DNA of 64,000 nucleotides, taken from positions 6,076,001 through 6,140,000 of the forward strand of contig NZ_CP108070.1 in the NCBI RefSeq assembly GCF_036178845.1, read 5' to 3'. The DNA is from Streptomyces sp. NBC_00271 (GTDB taxonomy: Bacteria; Actinomycetota; Actinomycetes; Streptomycetales; Streptomycetaceae). Both the position numbers and the translations under genes were made by a program. The notes beneath the pieces were generated by a model, which had not been told where the DNA came from, did no database searches, and was given only the letters and a program-made list of their open reading frames with translations. Below, piece by piece: positions 19,413 through 38,133 of the stretch; within the stretch, counting starts at the first letter, position 1, and every line of letters starts with the position of its first letter.

Positions 19413-19685
19413 CGCGTTCGAAATCCCCCGCGCGTCGGTCCGTACCTTTTCCAATCTACCCATGTTGACCTGCGTGTATGTGGAGAGACTCAACGCTTCA
19501 AGGTCATGTTTCCGGCAGGTTGCGGTCGGGGTGGACCTCCTTGTCCTGCGTGTGTCCTTGGCGCTAACCATGCAGGTCTGCACGGTTTGTAAGATCGGGC
19601 GTCCCCGGTGGCGCAATCGTGCTGTATCGGCCCGTAGCGGCGGCTCATCGCTCGAAGGATGCTAAAGCTTTACTTGAAAAACCGA

Positions 19686-19699
19686 ACAGACATGTCTGT
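19686..19699 (+). promoter_or_regulatory. Perfect palindromic operator upstream of afsA
   Basis: ACAGACATGTCTGT is a perfect 14-bp palindrome. TTGAAA lies upstream and TATCTT overlaps its right side, so it sits in the afsA promoter. Confidence 0.75.
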
Positions 19700-19793
19700 A
19701 TCTTGTGTGGGCGAGAGAACGTCGGCCACGGGGGGTGGCTGCCGGCGGTACGGATTGCTGCCCCCTGCTCGGAAACAGACAGGAGTGCCGTAC

Positions 19794-20888
19794 ATGTCGT
19801 ACACCACCTCCACCCGTGTGTCCGTCGAAGACGACGTCGCGACGGTGGGCACCAGCGCCTCACGAACCGCCTCACGACCCGCTGCCCGAACCGCTGTTCA
19901 ACCCGCCGTTCAGACCTCTGCCCAGGCCTCTGCCCAAGCCTCCGTTCAGACCGCCACGCGAACTCTGACGCCGCGGCTGACCACGACGGTTCCGCGCGAG
20001 TACGTCCATCGCGCCGCCGTCTCGGAGGTGTTGCTGACCGGCTGGGAGGCCGCCGCCGAGCCAGCCGGACCCGACCCGGACGAATTCGCGGTCAGCGCCC
20101 AATGGCCGCGCAGCCACTCCTTCTTCACCCAGTCCGGCGGCTACCAGGACCCGATGCTCCTGATCGAGTCCGTCCGCCAGATCGGTTCCCTGCTCGCGCA
20201 CGCGGAGTTCGGCGTCCCCTTCGGGCACCAGTTCCTGATGTGGGACATGTTCTTCAGCACCTCCCCCGAACTCCTCGTCGCGGACGCCGTCCCCACGGAG
20301 GTCGAACTGCGCACGGTCTGCCGCGACATCGTCCGCAGGGGCCGGGTGCTCGGCGGTATGCGCTACGACGTCACCGTGCTGCGCGACGGAAGGGCGCTGG
20401 CCACCGCCGGCGCCGCGTTCAGCTGCACCAGTCCCGCCGTCCACCGCAGGCTGCGCGCCGGCCGGCCCACCACCACCGACCGCGTCGTGCCGCCCGCGAT
20501 CGACCCGGCCGCGGTGGGCCACGCCGACGACCGGCACGTGCTGCTCGCCGAGCCCGGATCGGCCTCCGGCAGCGGCGACCGCTGGGAACTGCGCGTCGAC
20601 ACCGCCCATCCCACCTTCTTCGACCACCCCGTCGATCACATACCGGGCATGGTCCTGCTGGAAGCCGCCCGGCAGGCCGGCCTCGTGTCGACCGGGATGC
20701 CGGACGCCCTCCTGCTGGGTCTCAAGAGCAACTTCGCGCGCTACGCCGAGTTCGACGCGCCCTGCTGGATCGAGCCGCAGGCCGAACCGCACGGTACGGA
20801 GGGCGGCGTACTGGTGCGGGTGCGCGGTACGCAGCACGCTGAGACCGTCTTCACCGCCGAGCTCGTCCTGAGCCCGCGCGGCCGCTGA
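19794..20888 (+). CDS. AfsA-type butyrolactone/butenolide synthase
   Basis: 364 residues from ATG 19794 (AGGAG at 8-9 bp). After a Thr/Ala/Gln-rich leader (about residues 20-60, with an imperfect repeat AQASAQASVQ) come two AfsA hotdog-fold repeats: the first around YVHRAAVSEVLLTGW and HSFFTQSGGYQDPMLLIESV, the second around HPTFFDHPVDHIPGMVLLEA. Family enzymes condense a beta-ketoacyl chain with dihydroxyacetone phosphate, the first committed step to gamma-butyrolactone or methylenomycin-furan/butenolide signals. An operator of the receptor type precedes it and an epimerase-family reductase follows, the usual signal-synthesis pair. Confidence 0.93.
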   Translation: MSYTTSTRVSVEDDVATVGTSASRTASRPAARTAVQPAVQTSAQASAQASVQTATRTLTPRLTTTVPREYVHRAAVSEVLLTGWEAAAEPAGPDPDEFAVSAQWPRSHSFFTQSGGYQDPMLLIESVRQIGSLLAHAEFGVPFGHQFLMWDMFFSTSPELLVADAVPTEVELRTVCRDIVRRGRVLGGMRYDVTVLRDGRALATAGAAFSCTSPAVHRRLRAGRPTTTDRVVPPAIDPAAVGHADDRHVLLAEPGSASGSGDRWELRVDTAHPTFFDHPVDHIPGMVLLEAARQAGLVSTGMPDALLLGLKSNFARYAEFDAPCWIEPQAEPHGTEGGVLVRVRGTQHAETVFTAELVLSPRGR

Positions 20889-24275: not shown

Positions 24276-24605
24276 ATGTACAGCACGCTGATTGTGGCTC
24301 GGATGGATCCCGGGTCGAGCGTCGACGTCGCGAAGATTTTCGGTGATTTCGACGACACGGAAATGCCGCACCGCATGGGCACGCGCCGGCGCCAGCTCTT
24401 CCAGTACCGGGGTCTGTACTTCCACCTCCAGGACTTCGACGCGGACAACGGCGGCGAGCTGATCCAGCACGCCCGGCACGACCCCCGCTTCATACAGATC
24501 AGCGAGGACCTGAAGCCGTTCATCGAGGCGTACGACCCGGCCACCTGGCGCTCCCCGGCCGACGCGATGGCCACACGCTTCTACAACTGGGAGGCGTCCG
24601 CGTGA
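24276..24605 (+). CDS. Polyketide cyclase, TcmI/JadI family
   Basis: 109 residues from ATG 24276 (AGGAGAGGG upstream), protein [15 protein letters not shown]. It matches the Cyclase_polyket family of small dimeric ferredoxin-like enzymes by [31 protein letters not shown] and the C-terminal FYNWEA. These proteins fold the poly-beta-ketone and close late rings, in angucyclines the angular fourth ring. The stop overlaps the KS-alpha GTG start (GTGA), giving the typical cyclase-KS-KS order. Confidence 0.93.
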
Positions 24606-25873
24606 CCGGCCGACGAGTTGTCATCACCGGTATCGAGGTGCTCGCCCCCGGTGGTGTCGGGGCGAAGAACTTCTGGAACCTGCTGAGCGAGGGCCGTACG
24701 GCCACCCGCCGCATCACGTTCTTCGACCCCAGCCCGTTCCGTTCCCGGGTCGCCGCCGAGATCGACTTCGATCCCGCGGAGCACGGGCTGCGCCCGCAGG
24801 AGATACGCCGGATGGACCGCGCCGCGCAGTTCGCGGTGGTCGCGGCCCGTGGTGCGGTCGCCGACAGCGGTATCGACATCGACGCCTACGACCCGTACCG
24901 GGTCGGCGTCACCATCGGCAGCGCGGTCGGCGCGACCATGGGTCTGGACGAGGAGTACAACGTCGTCAGCGACGGCGGCCGGCTCCACCTGGTCGACCAC
25001 GCCTACACGGCCCCGCACCTGTACAACTACCTGGTCCCCAGCTCCTTCGCGGCCGAGGTCGCGTGGGCCGTGGGCGCGCAGGGCCCCAACACGGTGGTCT
25101 CCACGGGCTGTACGTCCGGCATCGACTCGGTCGGGCACGCCGTGGAGCTGCTCCGCGAGGGCTCGGCGGACGTCATGATCACGGGTTCGTCCGACGCCCC
25201 GATCTCGCCGATCACGATGGCGTGCTTCGACGCGATCAAGGCGACGACGCCCCGGGACGACGTACCCGAGCGTGCCTCGCGCCCCTTCGACGGGACCCGC
25301 AACGGGTTCGTCCTCGGGGAGGGTGCCGCCGTGTTCGTCCTGGAGGAGCTGGAGAGCGCCAAGCGGCGCGGCGCACACATCTACGCCGAGATCGCGGGCT
25401 ATGCGACGCGCTCGAACGCGTACCACATGACGGGTCTGCGTCCGGACGGGGCGGAGATGGCCGAGGCCATCACGGTCGCGCTCGACGAGGCCAGGATGAA
25501 CGCGACCGAGATCGACTACATCAACGCGCACGGCTCGGGCACCAAGCAGAACGACCGCCACGAGACCGAGGCGTTCAAGCGGAGCCTGGGCGACCACGCC
25601 TACCGGACCCCGGTCAGCTCGATCAAGTCGATGGTCGGGCACTCGCTCGGCGCGATCGGCTCCATCGAGATCGCCGCGTCCGCGCTGGCGATGGAGAACC
25701 ACGTCGTGCCGCCCACGGCCAACCTCACCACCCCCGACCCCAAGTGCGACCTCGACTACGTGCCGCTGGTCGCCCGTGAGCAGCTCACCGACGCGGTGCT
25801 CACGGTCGGCAGCGGCTTCGGGGGATTCCAGAGCGCCATGGTGCTGGCGCGTCCCGAGAGGAGCGTGGCATGA
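24602..25873 (+). CDS. Type II polyketide ketosynthase alpha subunit
   Basis: 423 residues. Thiolase-fold condensing enzyme with the nucleophile Cys170 in [14 protein letters not shown] and catalytic His in [12 protein letters not shown] and [12 protein letters not shown]. It catalyses Claisen condensations of malonyl-ACP to build the aromatic polyketide chain with its KS-beta partner. Start and stop overlap both neighbours (GTGA at the start, ATGA with KS-beta), ensuring stoichiometric translation. Length and order cyclase-KSalpha-KSbeta-ACP match angucycline minimal synthases. Confidence 0.97.
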
Positions 25874-27084
25874 CCACCACGGTGGTAGTGACCGGTCTGG
25901 GCATCGCCGCCCCCAACGGACTGGGCACACAGGACTACTGGGCCGCCACCCGGACCGGCAAGAACGGCATCGGGCGGGTCACCCGCTTCGACCCGTCCTC
26001 CTACCCCTCGACCCTCGCGGGCGAGGTGCCCGGCTTCGTCGCCGCGGACGTGCTGCCGAGCCGGCTGCTGCCGCAGACCGACCACATGACCCGGATGGCG
26101 CTGGTCGCCGCCGAGTGGGCGCTCGCGGACGCGGGCATCGACCCCAAGGAACTGCCCGAGTACGACATGGGCGTCGTCACGGCCAGTTCCTCGGGCGGCT
26201 TCGAGTTCGGACAGGGCGAGCTGGAGAAGCTGTGGAGCCAGGGCAGCCAGTACGTGTCCGCGTACCAGTCCTTCGCCTGGTTCTACGCCGTCAACAGCGG
26301 CCAGATATCCATCCGCAACGGGCTCAAGGGCCCCAGCGGCGTCATCGTCAGTGACGAGGCCGGCGGTCTCGACGCGGTGGCGCACGGCCGGCGGCTCATC
26401 CGCAAGGGCACCCCGATGATCGTCTCCGGGGGCGTCGACGCGTCGATCTGCCCCTGGGGCTGGGTGGCGCAGATGGCCGGCGACCGGCTGAGCACCAGCG
26501 ACGAGCCGACCCGTGCCTACCTGCCCTTCGACGCCGACGCGGCCGGTTACGTACCGGGCGAGGGCGGCGCCATCCTGATCATGGAGTCGGTCGAGTCGGC
26601 GTGCGAGCGCGGCGCCAAGATCTACGGCGAGATCGCGGGCTACGGCTCGACGTTCGACCCGCGGCCCGGCAGCGACCGCGAGCCCGCCCTGCGCAAGGCG
26701 ATCGAACTCGCCCTCGCCGACGCGGGCACCGCCCCCGAGGACGTCGACGTGGTCTTCGCGGACGCGGCGGGCGTGCCGGAGCTGGACCGTGTCGAGGCCG
26801 ACGCGATCTCGGCGGTCTTCGGGGTCCGGGGTGTCCCGGTCACCGCGCCCAAGACGATGACGGGCCGGCTGTACTCCGGCGCGGCCCCGCTCGACGTCGC
26901 CACCGCGCTGCTGGCCATCGAGGAGGGCCTCATCCCTCCGACGGTCCACATCAACCCCGACGAGGAGTACGGCCTCGACCTGGTCCTCAACCAGTCGCGC
27001 ACCGCCCAGGTGCGCACCGCCCTGGTCCTGGCCCGCGGTTACGGCGGCTTCAACTCGGCCGTCGTGGTCCGCGCCGTCGACTGA
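25870..27084 (+). CDS. Type II polyketide ketosynthase beta subunit (chain length factor), Gln-to-Glu at active site
   Basis: 404 residues, homologous to KS-alpha but lacking the nucleophilic Cys. In most chain length factors that site is Gln in a EQAGG-type motif; here it is Glu163 in [13 protein letters not shown] (codon GAG at 26356-26358). The beta subunit fixes chain length and decarboxylates malonyl-ACP to prime the chain. The C-terminal region ([32 protein letters not shown]) is intact, so this is not a decayed gene. The expected product class is decaketide from cluster context, which sequence alone cannot prove. Confidence 0.95.
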
Positions 27085-27157: not shown

Positions 27158-27433
27158 GTGTCCACTTCGGAATTCACCCTGGACGACCTGCGCCGCATCC
27201 TCCAGGAGGGCGCCGGTGTCGACGAGGGCGTCGACCTCGACGGCGACATCCTCGACGAGCCGTTCGAAGTCCTCGGCTACGAGTCGCTGGCGCTCCTGGA
27301 GACCGGCAGCCGTATCGAGCGCGAGTACGGGATCGTCCTCGACGAGGACCTGCTGACCGACGCCGACACCCCGCGCGCCCTCATCGAGGCCGTGAACCAG
27401 CAGTTCGGCGCCGACGAGCCCGCCGCCGCCTGA
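27158..27433 (+). CDS. Acyl carrier protein of the type II synthase
   Basis: 91 residues from a GTG, GGAAGGA upstream. Four-helix carrier with phosphopantetheine attachment Ser43 in VLGYESLALLETGSRI, a variant of the usual DSL motif (ESL). It holds the growing chain for the ketosynthases, ketoreductase and cyclases. It must be activated by a phosphopantetheinyl transferase; a Sfp-type enzyme is encoded at 37327-38133. Confidence 0.96.
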   Translation: MSTSEFTLDDLRRILQEGAGVDEGVDLDGDILDEPFEVLGYESLALLETGSRIEREYGIVLDEDLLTDADTPRALIEAVNQQFGADEPAAA

Positions 27434-31050: not shown

Positions 31051-32526
31051 ATGGACGCGCAGATGGACGCGGACGTCATCGTCGTCGGCGCCGGCCCGGC
31101 CGGGCTGATGCTGGCCGGGGAACTGCGGCTGGGCGGGGTGAGCGTCATCGTCGCCGAGCGGCTGGCGCGGCCCACCGGACAGTCGCGCGGGCTCGGGTTC
31201 ACCGCCCGCGCCATGGAGTCCTTCGACCAGCGCGGTCTCGTCCCGCGCTTCGGCGGGCTGGAGAAGAGCCCGATGGGCCACTTCGGCGGGGTGCAGTTCG
31301 ACTACACCGTGCTGGAGGACGCCCACTTCGGGGCCCGCGGCGTCCCCCAGTCCCAGACGGAGGCGGTTCTGGAGGAGTGGGCGGGCGAGCTCGGCGCGGA
31401 CATCCGGCGGGGCTGGGAGTTCCTGGCGCTGGAGCAGGACGGGACCGGGGTCACCGTCACCGTGGCCGCGCCCGACGGCGAGCGCACGCTGCGCGCCGCG
31501 TACCTGGTGGGCGCCGACGGCGGGCACAGCCCGGTGCGCAAGGCCGCGGGCTTCGACTTCCCCGGTACGCCCGCCACCCGCGGCATGTATCTCGCGGATG
31601 TCGTCGGCTGCGAGATCCCGCCGCGCTTCCTGGGCGAGCGGCTGCCCGGCGGCATGGTGATGGCCGCGCCGCTGAAGGAGGGCGTGGACCGGATCATCGT
31701 GTGTGAGCACGGCACCCCGCCGGCCGACCGCAGTGAGACCCCGGAGTTCGCCGAAGTGGCGGCGGCCTGGGAGCGGTTGACGGGTGAGGACATCTCCGGC
31801 GGCGGCGCGGACTGGGTCAGCTCCTTCACGGATGCCACCCGCCAGGTCACCGAGTACCGGCGCGGGCGGGTGCTGCTCGTCGGCGACGCCGCGCACATCC
31901 ATCTGCCGGCCGGCGGCCAGGGACTGAGCACCGGTGTCCAGGACGCGGTCAACCTCGGCTGGAAGCTCGCGGCGACCGTCCAGGGCCGGGCTCCCGAGGG
32001 ACTGCTCGACACCTACCACGACGAGCGTCACGCGGTCGGCGCGCGGCTGCTGATGAACACCAAGGCACAGGGCACGGTCTTCCTCGGCGGCCCCGAGTCC
32101 CAGCCGCTGCGTGATCTGTTCGCCGAGCTCATCGGCCTCGATTCGGTCAAGCGGCACCTCGCCGGGGTGGTCAGCCACCTCGACGTCCGCTACGACCTCG
32201 GAGGCGCCGGGGACTCGCTGGTCGGGCGCAGGTTGCCGCCGCGGGCGCTGAACACCGCCGCCGGCGAGGTCCGTACGCCCGAACTCCTCCACGCCGCCCA
32301 GGGCGTGCTGCTCGACCTCGCCGACGACTCCGTACTGCGCGAGGCGGCTGCCCGCTGGAAGGACCGCGTCACCGTCGTCACCGGCACCCCGCAGGACCCG
32401 GCCGCGTTCGGCGGCGCCGCCGCGGTGCTGGTCCGCCCCGACGGCTATGTGGCCTGGGCGGACACCGGTTCGGCGGAGCTGTGCGCGACGCTGCGCCGCT
32501 GGTTCGGCGCACCCGAAGCCCGCTGA
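31051..32526 (+). CDS. FAD-dependent aromatic monooxygenase (PgaE/JadH-like)
   Basis: 491 residues from ATG 31051 with GAGGAGAGG upstream. Same architecture as the preceding oxygenase: VVGAGPAGLMLAGELRLGG, LVGADGGHSPVRKAAG, GDAAHIHLPAGGQGLSTG and LVRPDGYVAWADTG. Its active region is closer to the gene at 45487 (shared SRGLGFTARAMESFDQRG-type segment) than to its neighbour. It likely performs a further hydroxylation or dehydration on the angucyclinone. The 200-bp gap before it is rich in CACGCAC-like short repeats and holds no gene. Confidence 0.9.
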   Translation: MDAQMDADVIVVGAGPAGLMLAGELRLGGVSVIVAERLARPTGQSRGLGFTARAMESFDQRGLVPRFGGLEKSPMGHFGGVQFDYTVLEDAHFGARGVPQSQTEAVLEEWAGELGADIRRGWEFLALEQDGTGVTVTVAAPDGERTLRAAYLVGADGGHSPVRKAAGFDFPGTPATRGMYLADVVGCEIPPRFLGERLPGGMVMAAPLKEGVDRIIVCEHGTPPADRSETPEFAEVAAAWERLTGEDISGGGADWVSSFTDATRQVTEYRRGRVLLVGDAAHIHLPAGGQGLSTGVQDAVNLGWKLAATVQGRAPEGLLDTYHDERHAVGARLLMNTKAQGTVFLGGPESQPLRDLFAELIGLDSVKRHLAGVVSHLDVRYDLGGAGDSLVGRRLPPRALNTAAGEVRTPELLHAAQGVLLDLADDSVLREAAARWKDRVTVVTGTPQDPAAFGGAAAVLVRPDGYVAWADTGSAELCATLRRWFGAPEAR

Positions 32527-32611
32527 GAGCCACCACCGGCAACCGCTCCGCACGAGAGCACCCACACGAAAGCACGAACACGCAAGCACGAACACGAGAG
32601 GAAGTACCCCA

Positions 32612-33562
32612 GTGAGCGTTCCCACGGTCGAGACCATCCCCTCGTCCGTACCCGGTCCGGCCATGCCCTCGATGTCCCCGGGTGTGCGCCCCGTCGCCCT
32701 GGCGGCCGGTGACGTCACGCTCTCCGCGCTGATCGCCCAACCCTCCGGGCCGCCGCGGGCCACGGTCGTCGCGGTGCACGGGGGAGGAATGAGCGCCGGG
32801 TACTTCGACGGGCAGGCCCACCCCGACGTCTCCCTGCTCGCCCTCGGCGCCCGGCTCGGCTACACCATGGTCGCCGTCGACCGGCCCGGCTACGGGCTGT
32901 CCGCCGCGGACGCCCCGAGCGGTCAGACCCTGGCCGAGCAGTCAGCGGCGCTGCACGCGGCACTGCGGCACCTGGCCGGCCGCGCCGAGACGGGCGCCGG
33001 GGTGTTCCTGCTCGCGCACTCCTTCGGCGGCAAGCTCGCCCTGACGTACGCCGCCTGCCAGGCCGGCGATCCGGATCCGGCCGTACCGCCGCTGCTCGGG
33101 CTCGACATCTCCGGGCTCGGCCGGGACTACGCGGTCGACCACCCGGAGGGCGGCCCCGACCCGCACCAGCACCGGCACTGGAAGCGGAACTGGGGTGCCC
33201 TGCGCTTCTACCCGCCGAACACCTTCCGCGAGGCCGAGGGCCTGGTCGCCCCGATGCCCCCGCGCGAGCAGGCCGAGGCACTCCAGTGGCCGCGGCGGTT
33301 CCCGGTCGCGGCGGCGGCCGTGCAGGTCCCGGTGCGGCTGACGTTCGCCGAGCAGGAACTGTGGTGGCACCACGACGAGGACACCGTCGCCGACCTCGCC
33401 GCGCACTTCGCCTCGGCGCCGTCCGCAGCCGTCGACCGTCAGCCCGGTGCCGGGCACAACATCAGCCTCGGCTGGGCCGCCCGCACCTACCACCTGCGCG
33501 CGTTCGCGTTCTTCGAGGAATGCCTCGCGCGCCGGTCCGCGGGCGCGTCCGTGACGCCCTGA
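32612..33562 (+). CDS. Alpha/beta-fold hydrolase
   Basis: 316 residues from GTG 32612 (GAGAGGAAG upstream). Oxyanion-hole HGGGMSAGYFD, nucleophile elbow LLAHSFGGKLAL with Ser, and catalytic His in PGAGHNISLG; the acid residue is probably in the TFAEQELWW segment. Substrate is unknown: candidates are an ester or thioester of the polyketide, or an epoxide as handled by hydrolases of the kinamycin pathway. A tandem 14-bp repeat (AAGCACGAACACG at 32570 and 32584) lies just before its ribosome-binding site. Confidence 0.8.
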   Translation: MSVPTVETIPSSVPGPAMPSMSPGVRPVALAAGDVTLSALIAQPSGPPRATVVAVHGGGMSAGYFDGQAHPDVSLLALGARLGYTMVAVDRPGYGLSAADAPSGQTLAEQSAALHAALRHLAGRAETGAGVFLLAHSFGGKLALTYAACQAGDPDPAVPPLLGLDISGLGRDYAVDHPEGGPDPHQHRHWKRNWGALRFYPPNTFREAEGLVAPMPPREQAEALQWPRRFPVAAAAVQVPVRLTFAEQELWWHHDEDTVADLAAHFASAPSAAVDRQPGAGHNISLGWAARTYHLRAFAFFEECLARRSAGASVTP

Positions 33563-33566
33563 TGCC

Positions 33567-34931
33567 ATGACGACCACACGGCCCGGCGCCAGGGACACGA
33601 CGAAGAGGGCGAGGCGGGGAAGGAGGGGCAGGTCGGCCGCGGGCGTCGGCAGCCGTCGTACGCCCTTCCGGTCTCTGTCCGTGCGCAACTTCCGGCTCTT
33701 CGCGGCCGGCCAGGTCGTCTCGGTCGCGGGCACCTGGATGATGGTCACCGCCCAGGACTGGCTGGTGCTCTCCCTGACGGGGGACTCCGGCACGGCCCTG
33801 GGCACCGTGACCGCGCTCCAGTTCACCCCACTGCTGCTGTTCACGCTGTACGGCGGCCGGCTCGCCGACCGCCACGACAAGCGGCTGCTGCTCACCCTCG
33901 CCAACCTGGTCTCCGGCGCCCTCGCGCTGGCACTCTCCGTACTCGTCCTGGCCGGCTCCGCCCAGCTGTGGCAGCTGTATCTGTTCGCGCTGGGCCTCGG
34001 CACCGTCAACGCGGTCGAGGTGCCCACCCGGATGGCGTTCGTCAGCGAGATGGTCGGCCCCGAACTGCTGCCCAACGCCTCGGCGCTCAGCGCCGCCTAC
34101 TTCAACACCGCCCGCGTGGTGGGTCCCGCCCTCGCCGGACTGCTGATCAGCGCGGTCGGCGCGGGGACGGCCATGCTGATCAACGCGGTCAGCTATCTCG
34201 CCACCGTGACCGGGCTGCGGCTGATGCGCCCGGGGGAACTCCTGCGCACGGCCCCGCCGGAGCGCGGGGTCAAGGTGGTCGACGGGCTGCGGTACGTGCG
34301 CGGGCACCCTGACCTGTTCGTGCCGCTGGCGCTGGTCGCCGTGGTCGGCCTGTTCGGCTTCAACTTCCAGCTCACCCTGCCGCTGCTCGCCAAGACCGTC
34401 TTCCACTCGGGCGCGACCGCGTTCGGGCTGCTGACCACGGCGTTCGCCGCCGGTTCGCTGCTCGGCGCGTTCGCCTCCACCGTGCGCAGCGCCCGCCCGG
34501 CCGCCCTGACCGTCACCGCCTCCGCACTCGCCTTCGGGCTCCTCGAGACGGCGGCAGGCTGGTCGCCCACCTACGCGTGGGCGGCCCTGCTGCTGTTTCT
34601 GACCGGCTTCGCCACCCTCTACTTCGCCCAAGCCGCCAACCACCGCATCCAGTTGGGCAGCGACGCCGCCTATCGCGGCCGGGTGATGGCGCTCTACACG
34701 CTCATCCTGCAAGGACTCACCCCACTCGGCGCCCTCCTCGTGGGCTGGCTCACCGTCCGTCACGGTGCGCGCTCCGGCCTGTACGTGGGAGGGCTCGCCT
34801 CGTCGGCGGCGGCGCTCGCGGTGCTGCTCGCGGGGCGCACACGTCGATTCCTTCCCAGCCATCGGCCGGAACCGGCACTCCTCGGGCCCGGCCCTCTCCC
34901 TGAAAGGCAGCCCCATGAGTCCCCTGAGTGA
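33567..34931 (+). CDS. Major facilitator superfamily exporter (MFS_3, EntS-like)
   Basis: 454 residues, about 12 membrane helices after a basic N-terminus. Signature NFRLFAAGQVVSVAGTWMM and the A-like motif in YGGRLADRHDKRLLL mark the MFS_3 group, which exports small molecules by proton antiport. A starting point 4 bp after the hydrolase and a 17-bp overlap with the next gene indicate one operon. It likely exports the product or an intermediate; a second, 14-helix exporter is encoded at 43315. Confidence 0.88.
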   Translation: MTTTRPGARDTTKRARRGRRGRSAAGVGSRRTPFRSLSVRNFRLFAAGQVVSVAGTWMMVTAQDWLVLSLTGDSGTALGTVTALQFTPLLLFTLYGGRLADRHDKRLLLTLANLVSGALALALSVLVLAGSAQLWQLYLFALGLGTVNAVEVPTRMAFVSEMVGPELLPNASALSAAYFNTARVVGPALAGLLISAVGAGTAMLINAVSYLATVTGLRLMRPGELLRTAPPERGVKVVDGLRYVRGHPDLFVPLALVAVVGLFGFNFQLTLPLLAKTVFHSGATAFGLLTTAFAAGSLLGAFASTVRSARPAALTVTASALAFGLLETAAGWSPTYAWAALLLFLTGFATLYFAQAANHRIQLGSDAAYRGRVMALYTLILQGLTPLGALLVGWLTVRHGARSGLYVGGLASSAAALAVLLAGRTRRFLPSHRPEPALLGPGPLPERQPHESPE

Positions 34932-35229
34932 CGACACCCCGTGCAGTTGGCTCGACCGGCTCCCGGACCCGGTCCAGCTGCGCGCCATGCCCCCCGACGC
35001 ACGAGCCCGCACCATCGGCCACTGCCTGCGCCTCGAACTGCACGACCTGCTCGCGGTCCCGCCGGGGCACCGGCTCTCGCCCGGTCTGCCGTTGCGCGGC
35101 CAGGGCCTGGACCCGCTCGACGCCCTGCACCTGGGGCGCCGGATCCGGCGCGCCCTCGACGCCGAGGTGCCCGCCGAGGTGCTGCGGGAGAGCACCGTCG
35201 GCGAACTGACCGCGTTGCTCGCCCGCTGA
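34915..35229 (+). CDS. Degenerate acyl-carrier-like protein lacking the phosphopantetheine serine
   Basis: 104 residues from ATG 34915, with AAAGG upstream inside the end of the exporter gene. The C-terminal 75 residues follow the ACP pattern: LSPGLPLRGQGLDPLDAL, then HLGRRIRRAL, then ESTVGELTALL. At the place of the attachment Ser in (L)GxDSLxAxxL there is Pro67 (codon CCG at 35113-35115). Surrounding ACP positions, reading frame and codon usage are intact, so it looks maintained, not decaying. It cannot carry a phosphopantetheine arm there. A structural, targeting or regulatory role with the synthase or carboxylase is possible; I know no characterised equivalent in angucycline clusters. A non-ACP small helical protein is the alternative. 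Confidence 0.7.
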   Translation: MSPLSDDTPCSWLDRLPDPVQLRAMPPDARARTIGHCLRLELHDLLAVPPGHRLSPGLPLRGQGLDPLDALHLGRRIRRALDAEVPAEVLRESTVGELTALLAR

Positions 35230-35284
35230 CCGAACCGTCGTTCCTCTTGATCCACTTTGATCCACTTGAATGGGAGATCCGTAC

Positions 35285-36853
35285 ATGGAGCCCGCGATAC
35301 CCATCGAACTGGGCGGCCGGCTGATGGAGCTGGCCGAACGCAAGGACATCGCCCGTGCCGGGCAGGACCCGAAGGCGACCGAACGACAGCACGCCAAGGG
35401 CAAGCTGACCGCTCACGAGCGCATCGAACTACTGCTGGACAAGGGCAGCTTCCAGGAGGTCGAACCGCTGCGCCGGCACCGTGCGACCGGCTTCGGCCTG
35501 GAGGCCAAGAAGCCCTACGGCGACGGTGTGATCACCGGCTGGGGCACGGTCGAGGGCCGTACGGTCTTCGTCTACGCCCATGACTTCCGTGTCTTCGGCG
35601 GCGCGCTGGGCGAGGCCCACGCCTGCAAGATCCACAAAATCATGGACATGGCCATCGCCGCCGGGGCGCCGCTGGTGTCGCTCAACGACGGTGCGGGCGC
35701 CCGCATCCAGGAGGGTGTCTCCGCGCTCGCCGGGTACGGCGGCATCTTCCAGCGCAACACCCGGGCCTCCGGTGTCATCCCGCAGATCAGCGTGATGCTC
35801 GGCCCGTGCGCGGGTGGCGCGGCGTACTCGCCCGCCCTGACCGACTTCATCTTCGCCGTCCGGGACATCTCGCAGATGTTCATCACCGGGCCCGACGTGG
35901 TCCGCGCGGTCACCGGCGAGGAGATCAGCCAGAACGGGCTCGGCGGGGCCGATGTGCACGGCGCTGTCTCGGGAGTGGCGCACTTCGTCCACGACGACGA
36001 GGAGAGCTGCCTCGCCGAGGTGCGCTATCTGCTGTCGCTGCTGCCGTCCAACAACCGCGAGCTGCCGCCCCGGCACGTCAGCGGCGACCCGGGCGACCGG
36101 TCCGGGGACGTGCTGCTCGACCTGGTGCCGCACGACGGCAACCGTTCGTACGACATGCGCGGGGTCGTCGAGGAACTCGTCGACGACGGCGACTACGTGG
36201 AGGTGCACGCGGGCTGGGCGCCGAACATCGTCTGCGCCCTGGCCCGGATCGACGGTCACACCGTCGGCATCGTCGCCAACCAGCCGGCCGCCATGGCGGG
36301 TGTCCTGGACATCAAGGCGAGCGAGAAGGCCGCGCGGTTCGTGCAGTTCTGCGACTCCTTCAACATCCCGCTGGTCACGCTGGTCGACGTGCCCGGCTTC
36401 CTGCCCGGCGTGGACCAGGAGCACGAGGGCATCATCCGGCGCGGCGCCAAGCTGCTGTACGCGTACTGCAACGCGACCGTGCCGCGGGTCTCCGTGGTGC
36501 TGCGCAAGGCGTACGGCGGCGCGTACATCGTGATGGACTCCCGCTCCATAGGCGCCGACATCGCGCTGGCCTGGCCGACCAACGAGATCGCGGTCATGGG
36601 TGCCGAGGGGGCCGCCAACGTGGTCTTCCGGCGGGAGATCGCGGCCGCGGACGACCCCGACGCGATGCGTCAAGAGAAAATCGACCAGTACAAGGAGGAG
36701 CTGGTCCACCCTTACTACGCCGCCGAACGCGGGCTGGTCGACGACGTCATCGACCCGCGCGAGACCCGGGCGGTCCTGGCCCGTTCGCTCGCCATGCTCG
36801 CGGCCAAGCACGCCGAGCTGCCGCGCCGCAAGCACGGCAACCCGCCCCAGTGA
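35285..36853 (+). CDS. Acyl-CoA carboxylase beta subunit (carboxyltransferase)
   Basis: 522 residues from ATG 35285 (GGGAG at the right distance; an ATG at 35270 is less well placed). Crotonase-fold carboxyltransferase with two halves: ARIQEGVSALAGYGGIFQRN and GPCAGGAAYSPALTDF in the first, LVDVPGFLPGVDQEHEGIIRR and RKAYGGAYIVM in the second. It transfers CO2 from biotin to acetyl-CoA or propionyl-CoA. With the alpha subunit (22315) and epsilon (36868) it completes an in-cluster carboxylase, supplying malonyl-CoA extender units. Confidence 0.94.
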   Translation: MEPAIPIELGGRLMELAERKDIARAGQDPKATERQHAKGKLTAHERIELLLDKGSFQEVEPLRRHRATGFGLEAKKPYGDGVITGWGTVEGRTVFVYAHDFRVFGGALGEAHACKIHKIMDMAIAAGAPLVSLNDGAGARIQEGVSALAGYGGIFQRNTRASGVIPQISVMLGPCAGGAAYSPALTDFIFAVRDISQMFITGPDVVRAVTGEEISQNGLGGADVHGAVSGVAHFVHDDEESCLAEVRYLLSLLPSNNRELPPRHVSGDPGDRSGDVLLDLVPHDGNRSYDMRGVVEELVDDGDYVEVHAGWAPNIVCALARIDGHTVGIVANQPAAMAGVLDIKASEKAARFVQFCDSFNIPLVTLVDVPGFLPGVDQEHEGIIRRGAKLLYAYCNATVPRVSVVLRKAYGGAYIVMDSRSIGADIALAWPTNEIAVMGAEGAANVVFRREIAAADDPDAMRQEKIDQYKEELVHPYYAAERGLVDDVIDPRETRAVLARSLAMLAAKHAELPRRKHGNPPQ

Positions 36854-36867
36854 GCAGGGAGGAAACC

Positions 36868-37170
36868 ATGAGCATCCAGCGCCCCGCCCTTGTCCCCGTT
36901 CCCGATCCCGTTCCCGCCCCCGATCCCGTATCCGAACCGGCGGCCGGTCCCGTCTGCGAACCCGCGGCCGGTCCGCTTTTCCGGATCGAGCGCGGCTGCC
37001 CCTCCCCGGAGGAGCTGGCCGCGCTGACCGCGGTACTGATGGCCGTCACCGCGGGCCCCGGCGTCGCACCCGACGACACGGCCCGCAAGCACCAGGTCGT
37101 CGCCCTGTGGCGCCGCCCCGAACGCGTCACCGGCTTCGACGGCCCCCGCACCTGGCGAGCGGCGGCCTGA
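36868..37170 (+). CDS. Acyl-CoA carboxylase epsilon subunit
   Basis: 100 residues from ATG 36868 with GGGAGGAAA upstream, 14 bp after the beta subunit. A Pro/Val/Asp-rich repeat (PVPDPVPAPDPVSEP) is followed by the family core FRIERGCPSPEELAALTAVL and a C-terminal WRRPERV...RTWRAA. Epsilon subunits of streptomycete carboxylases bind and stimulate the beta subunit. A terminator hairpin follows. Confidence 0.85.
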   Translation: MSIQRPALVPVPDPVPAPDPVSEPAAGPVCEPAAGPLFRIERGCPSPEELAALTAVLMAVTAGPGVAPDDTARKHQVVALWRRPERVTGFDGPRTWRAAA

Positions 37171-37326: not shown

Positions 37327-38133
37327 TCAGCGCTCCAGATCCCCGTGCTGAGCGGGATCCCGGAGCATCGACCGCAGCCCCGGTTCCATCTCCACAAGAC
37401 GCTCCACCGCATCCGGGGCGTACAGATAGGCGGTGGGCACGGCGCGAAGGGCGACGGGCCGATCCCCCGCCCCGGCCAGCGCCACCGCCGCGATGTGGGT
37501 GGAACACAGGGGCAGGTTGCCCACCACCCAGCCCGTCGGCCGCTCGGCCAGTCCCGCCTCACCGAGGTAGTCGAGGTCGGCCCCCCGGGTCAGCCCGGTG
37601 CCCAGCCCCTTCAGATACGCCTCCTTCCGTGTCCACAGGCGGCCGAAGGCCATGGTCCGTTCGTGCTCGGGAATCTTCTCGAGCTCCTCACGCTCGGCCG
37701 GATGCAGCGCCGGCAGACACGCCTCGGCGGTCTGGGGCGACGGCAGCCGTTGGACGTCGGCGCCCACCCGCGACTCCGCCACCACCACGATCGCCAGGCC
37801 GTGGCTGTGCGAGAGCGAGAACTGGGGGGCGCCGCCGGGCACGCCGAGCACCACGGGCCGGCCGTGGCGTTCACCGTTGCCGTTGTACCGCTCGCCGGCG
37901 AGGTTGAGCCGGCTCGGTTCGATGCCGGTGTAACCGGCGAGGACCCGGCGCAGTCCCACGTGCGCCGCGGCGTACATCTGGCGGTCGTCGGGGCGACGGT
38001 AGGAGTCGGCCCGACCTCTCTCGTACGCGTCGAGCTCGTCGTACGGGACGTCACGCGGCGAGTCGGGCGGCGGCAGCAGCCACACGTCCAACTCCCCTCG
38101 CGCTACGGCGAGCCGGCGCACCGTCGGGGTCAA
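37327..38133 (-). CDS. Sfp-type 4'-phosphopantetheinyl transferase (JadM-like)
   Basis: 268 residues from TTG 38133, whose TTGA overlaps the stop of the upstream aromatase gene. Family motifs: FSLSHSHGLAIVVVA, VGADVQ (the Mg-binding Asp; the usual following Glu is Gln), and GRLWTRKEAYLKGLG. It transfers the phosphopantetheine arm of CoA to Ser43 of the cluster ACP. Translational coupling to the second aromatase/cyclase is unusual for a PPTase. Dedicated PPTases occur in jadomycin and kinamycin clusters. Confidence 0.92.
   Translation of the reverse strand: MTPTVRRLAVARGELDVWLLPPPDSPRDVPYDELDAYERGRADSYRRPDDRQMYAAAHVGLRRVLAGYTGIEPSRLNLAGERYNGNGERHGRPVVLGVPGGAPQFSLSHSHGLAIVVVAESRVGADVQRLPSPQTAEACLPALHPAEREELEKIPEHERTMAFGRLWTRKEAYLKGLGTGLTRGADLDYLGEAGLAERPTGWVVGNLPLCSTHIAAVALAGAGDRPVALRAVPTAYLYAPDAVERLVEMEPGLRSMLRDPAQHGDLER

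Follow-up and report, generated by a model that had tools for sequence, protein, structure and literature searches.

The window, that is the whole stretch of 64,000 nucleotides from Streptomyces sp. NBC_00271 considered here, harbored a small gene (34915..35229, forward strand) whose 104-residue product (P0001) resembles an acyl carrier protein (ACP) and displayed a proline in place of the serine to which phosphopantetheine is attached. The corresponding codon 67 (35113..35115, same strand) reads CCG and falls in the motif GLDPLDALHL; in a functional ACP, helix II must carry Ser at its N-terminus, where Pro67 was found instead. The start codon, an ATG, sits within the 3' end of the open reading frame (ORF) of a major facilitator superfamily (MFS) exporter (33567..34931, forward strand), the two genes sharing 17 bases, and a likely ribosome binding site, AAAGG (34903..34907, forward strand), was read 8-12 bases 5' of it. 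GC contents by codon position (0.83/0.52/0.92) were of the coding type, and Pfam domain PP-binding (PF00550) matched the product with 32.4 bits (curated cut-off 20.8, E 1.1e-7). An earlier note on this DNA had placed between an exporter and a carboxyltransferase an intact coding frame with Pro67 in the helix II pattern of ACPs. All of this was borne out, coordinates, frame and length included, the downstream neighbor being the beta subunit of an acyl-CoA carboxylase (ACC-beta, carboxyltransferase; 35270..36853, forward strand, family match). A spurious ORF was ruled out by the Pfam match, the relatives and the selection described below.

The closest relatives, 95-98% identical, were found in S. 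olivochromogenes, S. diastatochromogenes and Streptomyces sp. NBC_01549, and their presence in three other Streptomyces genomes indicates that the ORF is a real gene. Their gene order matched that of the window as far as the fetched stretches extended, and all three displayed Thr at position 67. A single-base error of sequencing or assembly, giving Pro for Thr, can for practical purposes be dismissed, since correction after these relatives would give Thr and not Ser, and 11 genomes lack the serine. These were gathered from the window, two residue surveys, two further close relatives and a plasmid locus. Profile searches detected matches in 21 out of 392 genomes of the genus, four out of 394 of the class and two out of 61 relatives of genome G394 (all at E 1e-12), and in 20 out of 394 genomes of the family (E 1e-14); the four sets overlap, and the window's genome is counted in the genus, class and family figures. 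A genus search from another centre (E 1e-18) matched 11 out of 333 genomes and brought no new ones. Four of the 31 loci in the first residue survey were non-Ser (the Thr of NBC_01549 again, Leu, Leu and Pro), as were three of the 24 loci in the second, six of which were shared with the first (Pro, Trp and Ala); the rest displayed Ser. Six weak matches in other genomes (E 8.7e-6 to 2.5e-4, frames of at least 745 aa) lay outside these surveys.

Among 72,556 plasmid records searched with P0001, 52 matched at E 1, the best 20 of these 52 being inspected, and seven matched at E 0.1. Five of the seven came from Streptomyces. Four were close relatives, each followed by genes for ACC-beta and the carboxylase epsilon subunit (ACC-epsilon); position 67 was Leu in one of them (NBC_00239) and Ser in the other three. 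The fifth, from S. albogriseolus, was a large frame of polyketide synthase (PKS) type with Ser present. Orthologues with Pro or another non-Ser residue, for which the earlier note had proposed to search, were thus encountered, the 11 genomes, window included, displaying P, T, T, T, L, L, W, A, P, P and L; one of these copies (G087) is a 59-residue fragment adjoining masked sequence. A mutation of one strain was rejected by the Ser-less copies in other genomes.

The tree comprised 36 rows, namely the 11 Ser-less ones, 19 Ser-bearing in-group rows and six from a Ser-bearing sister group; omitted were further matches, which all displayed Ser and belonged mostly to the sister group, and duplicate copies of places already represented. 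Eight Ser-less rows (P, T, T, T, L, L, W, A) formed one clade nested in Ser-bearing rows (support 99/94). The GVHP pair (P, P) was sister to this clade (94/88), two Ser-bearing rows branched next (90/90), and the eleventh Ser-less row (Leu) stood separately on a long branch. The same groupings were obtained when the Ser column was left out (98/94, 94/86 and 84/91). At least two changes between Ser and non-Ser were required on the tree, and at least seven for residue identity. With groups named after the tree was seen, neither a single clade of all 11 Ser-less rows (p 0.29) nor a grouping of the GVHP pair with two Ser-bearing rows (p 0.11) was rejected. The Thr of the three nearest relatives could suggest that the protein is still charged, with Thr or another residue taking the phosphopantetheine and Pro being a recent loss in one strain. 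This is highly improbable, as Leu, Leu, Trp and Ala in the clade and Pro in the sister pair carry no hydroxyl, and no alternative Ser was conserved through the clade (residues 30-104).

The sequence profile is clearly that of an ACP. Searched against the PDB, the family profile matched ACPs of modular PKSs, among them EryAI (E 5.9e-7, 88 of 98 profile positions covered), and ACP domains of modular type I PKSs (EryAI, mycolactone) were its best sequence relatives among solved structures; NCBIfam matches were weak, below cut-off, and concerned C-terminal parts of PKSs. A weak structure model, made from the shallow alignment of the window and three loci only, gave no clear fold match, and absence from the VIA-align list does not exclude a family; the model displayed a short helix (19-24) before helix I, and its helix II began at residue 67. 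Modular PKS ACPs have an extra N-terminal helix, H0, according to PMC6382882. In contrast to such domains, the protein of the window is small, separate, Ser-less and located in a type II PKS cluster.

Position 67 was Ser in 19 out of 19 Ser-bearing in-group rows and was occupied by five different residues in the eight rows of the clade. Only columns 44, 67 and 74 of 69 core columns reached five residues in this clade, and G64, L65, D66 and A70 were invariant. Columns 36, 40 and 45 of helix I were fixed in the Ser-less clade and displayed seven, four and six residues in Ser-bearing rows, which hints at a possible new contact face, though from few independent lineages. A codon model covering 91 codons and seven of the eight rows of the clade (the near-identical S. 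diastatochromogenes was omitted) yielded an omega of 0.28 and rejected omega 1 (lnL -1103.3 versus -1128.4 at omega 1). Omega 1 was likewise rejected for the trio with Leu, Leu and Trp (0.20) and for the four close rows (0.18). For comparison, omega was 0.185 and 0.060 in two Ser-bearing sets, 0.014 for ACC-beta of the four close rows and 0.168 for the MFS gene. Pairwise NG86 values between subclades were higher (0.60-0.93), probably due in part to strong codon bias, which is accounted for in the codon model. Judging from these substitution patterns, the protein stayed under constraint once Ser had gone, though more loosely than its Ser-bearing relatives. Purifying selection on a carrier domain kept without Ser suggests a non-catalytic role, as the earlier note had proposed; among the roles named there, docking would fit, titration and sensing being candidates.

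In the relatives, a frequent order was MFS or hydrolase, ACP-like gene, phosphopantetheinyl transferase (PPTase), ACC-beta and often ACC-epsilon. The ACP gene overlapped the PPTase gene by four bases in six out of six annotated records where a member of the family or of the sister group adjoins a PPTase. In G160, G212 and kin, which are Ser-bearing, the in-group gene followed ACC-beta and an NTF2-like gene, and a sister-group ACP lay near the PPTase; in NBC_00335 the common part was confined to the block ACP, PPTase, ACC-beta and ACC-epsilon, its remaining neighbors being different. In the window, ACC-beta is followed by ACC-epsilon (36976..37170, forward strand; 37170 closes the stop codon, and 36976 is a provisional start) and then, on the opposite strand and apart from the ACP-like gene, by a PPTase with an intact catalytic motif (37327..38133). 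The PPTase was found beyond ACC-epsilon on the strand opposite to ACC-beta in eight out of eight members of the Ser-less clade, in contrast to 22 out of 22 other loci with a PPTase, where it was on the ACC-beta strand; none was found in one of the 31 loci (G102), and the motif was intact in the 30 others. PPTases of the Ser-less clade (window 37327-38133; L008-L011, L048, L140, L141) formed one clade themselves (100/100) with a long stem of 0.77, and represent a strongly diverged form, which would have either moved and sped up or been replaced. In the window and in NBC_00239, the ACP-like gene overlapped the exporter gene and not the PPTase gene. The argument from PPTase coupling holds for Ser-bearing relatives and not for the Ser-less clade, where the PPTase lies elsewhere.

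The protein might also be a regulator or decoy which occupies a carrier-binding surface unmodified and tunes the charging of the real ACP through the PPTase or through ACP partners. The PPTase coupling of the Ser-bearing relatives, with its overlap in six records out of six, would fit such a role, as would an isoelectric point (pI) of 6.4 versus 4.05 for the type II ACP of the cluster, which implies a different surface. As the PPTase of the window's clade is located elsewhere and has diverged, this role is regarded as improbable.

ACC-beta was present within the same fetched stretch in 31 out of 31 loci; it also occurs without the ACP-like gene. A sample of nine, a non-random draw from 320 plasmid records with related ACC-beta, included three with a pair of Ser-bearing ACP and PPTase, three with neither ACP nor PPTase within 5 kb on each side (from an incomplete gene table, though there was no room directly before ACC-beta), two where a PPTase was arranged differently, together with other ACP or carrier genes, and one nonribosomal peptide synthetase (NRPS) cluster. 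Neighborhood was therefore not decisive for ACC-beta as the partner, since ACC-beta was found without the ACP-like gene and the PPTase was indicated at least as much. The history of the gene, with PPTase coupling in Ser-bearing relatives, points to putative carrier-type contacts over the carboxyltransferase in particular. Around the GVHP pair no ketosynthase match was found in the fetched stretches, to which this observation is confined.

On balance we lean slightly towards a modular-PKS-like ACP, formerly coupled to a PPTase, which survives as an uncharged, protein-binding adaptor. Its ancestor was probably a chargeable stand-alone ACP resembling those of modular (type I) PKSs, made together with the PPTase. 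The ancestor from which this lineage of Streptomyces clusters descends would have lost the attachment Ser and, the arm being no longer needed, the site would have become free to drift. The protein would have been retained by a second job independent of the arm, that of holding pathway proteins through the carrier fold. It would at present be an expressed and folded adaptor, uncharged and non-covalent, between pathway proteins, its putative partner being the carboxylase, the alpha/beta hydrolase upstream of the exporter (32447..33562, forward strand, family match), a ketosynthase or the PPTase. The main rival, a decaying relic whose carrier role is no longer needed and which is on its way out, held by a tightly packed operon, appears unlikely: open frame and core motifs were intact in eight out of eight clade members, with as many as 51 of 91 residues differing between pairs, and omega was 0.18-0.28 in this clade, with omega 1 rejected, albeit in a small sample. 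Several observations speak for such a relic, namely the faster change than in Ser-bearing relatives, the free drift of the Ser site and the clusters with ACC-beta that lack the ACP-like gene. Broader, and rather doubtful though conceivable, would be a bacterial family of uncharged carriers that, after loss of Ser and of the coupled PPTase, acquired a new helix I contact face and became a structural subunit tying pathway enzymes together.

A comparable case is the mitochondrial ACP (mACP) of Plasmodium falciparum, in which Ser is replaced by Phe and which is essential without the arm and binds Isd11-Nfs1; its Toxoplasma relatives display Cys or Gly in the Ser place, and the Plasmodium mitochondrion has lost its own fatty-acid synthesis and PPTase (PMC8547962). 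According to its authors, Ser-less mACP homologues belong to Apicomplexa, with only one chromerid outside the phylum (PMC8547962). As there, the attachment Ser was replaced by varying residues in the family of the window and the protein is under selection, a likeness drawn without sequence comparison; however, mACP belongs to a eukaryotic organelle without PPTase, whereas in the cluster of the window a Ser-bearing ACP is still present, as is a PPTase. Loss of Ser goes with loss of the adjacent PPTase in the clade of eight, which is reminiscent of Plasmodium, although the GVHP pair and the lone Leu row, Ser-less as they are, still have the PPTase adjacent. The modular PKS for phthoxazolin A contains one presumed inactive ACP domain (PMC5764310), and dead carrier domains inside megasynthases are therefore already known. 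Among the papers listed from the open-access literature, which mostly lacks subscription journals, no stand-alone Ser-less ACP was found in a bacterial polyketide cluster, and no precedent was found for an arm-independent function of an ACP in bacterial polyketide synthesis. Ser is what makes a carrier a carrier, and a lineage in which this site wanders (Pro, Thr, Leu, Trp, Ala) and selection maintains the remainder of the protein separates the docking role from the acyl-carrying one; a bacterial case with close Ser-bearing relatives makes arm-independent ACP function in polyketide synthesis testable.

The earlier note knew of no such gene in characterised angucycline clusters, which did not hold for the gene as such: Ser-bearing relatives are widespread in angucycline-type clusters, and what is new here is the loss of Ser. 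The auricin cluster of S. lavendulae CCM 3239 displayed the same surroundings (MFS, ACP, PPTase, ACC-beta, ACC-epsilon), with a gene of sister-group type between exporter and PPTase. It differs by an acyltransferase gene between PPTase and ACC-beta and by an ACP that keeps Ser (GIGSIS) and resembles the sister group; this arrangement, with the ACP gene directly before the PPTase gene, would fit aur1L and aur1M of PMC10409956. In the sister group, GxGSI replaces DSL, and some members have an Asp-rich N-terminal stretch (L054, L050 and kin; L155:2773-3135; L156:3530-4000; L162:2783-3145). In numerous angucycline-type clusters, of which some contain two additional ACPs, a sister-group ACP was located close to the PPTase. 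The Ser-less lineage also brings to attention a second, unexplained ACP in many clusters of this type.

The minimal PKS of the window consists of KS-alpha and KS-beta, the chain length factor (24602..27084, forward strand, sequence match), followed by an acidic type II PKS ACP with Ser43 in the motif GYESL (27158..27433, forward strand, sequence match), a gene separate from that of the ACP-like protein. It starts 7.76 kb upstream of the ACP-like ORF, close to the 7.6 kb given in the earlier note. The motif YES(L) was displayed by the type II ACP of 16 out of 18 matched clusters; of the other two matches, one begins at Ser and one does not cover it. The type II ACP gene (window 27158-27430; L008:2186-2458; L010:2231-2503) was identical at 91 out of 91 codons across three species, unlike the ACC-beta and MFS genes of the same species, which differ at synonymous sites. 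A gene with an AfsA domain (gamma-butyrolactone type; 19659..20888, domain match) lies at the cluster edge. From its gene set (ketosynthase, KS; ketoreductase, KR; aromatase/cyclase, ARO/CYC; FAD monooxygenases; ABM monooxygenase), and by comparison with known clusters of this kind, the cluster would be of the angucycline type.

The genome of the window contained 49 PP-binding matches, or 44 once five pairs with the same translation were merged. Ser was lacking only in the ACP-like protein and in one duplicated domain, NRPS-type by motif, and a common degenerate carrier domain was rejected on this genome-wide count of two distinct PP-binding domains without Ser. The duplicated domain (GGHPAAAARL) displayed Pro at the Ser place (G000:C1:11688507-11688701 and 243415-243609; L086/L087), and its two copies, identical in translation, were located near the two opposite chromosome ends.
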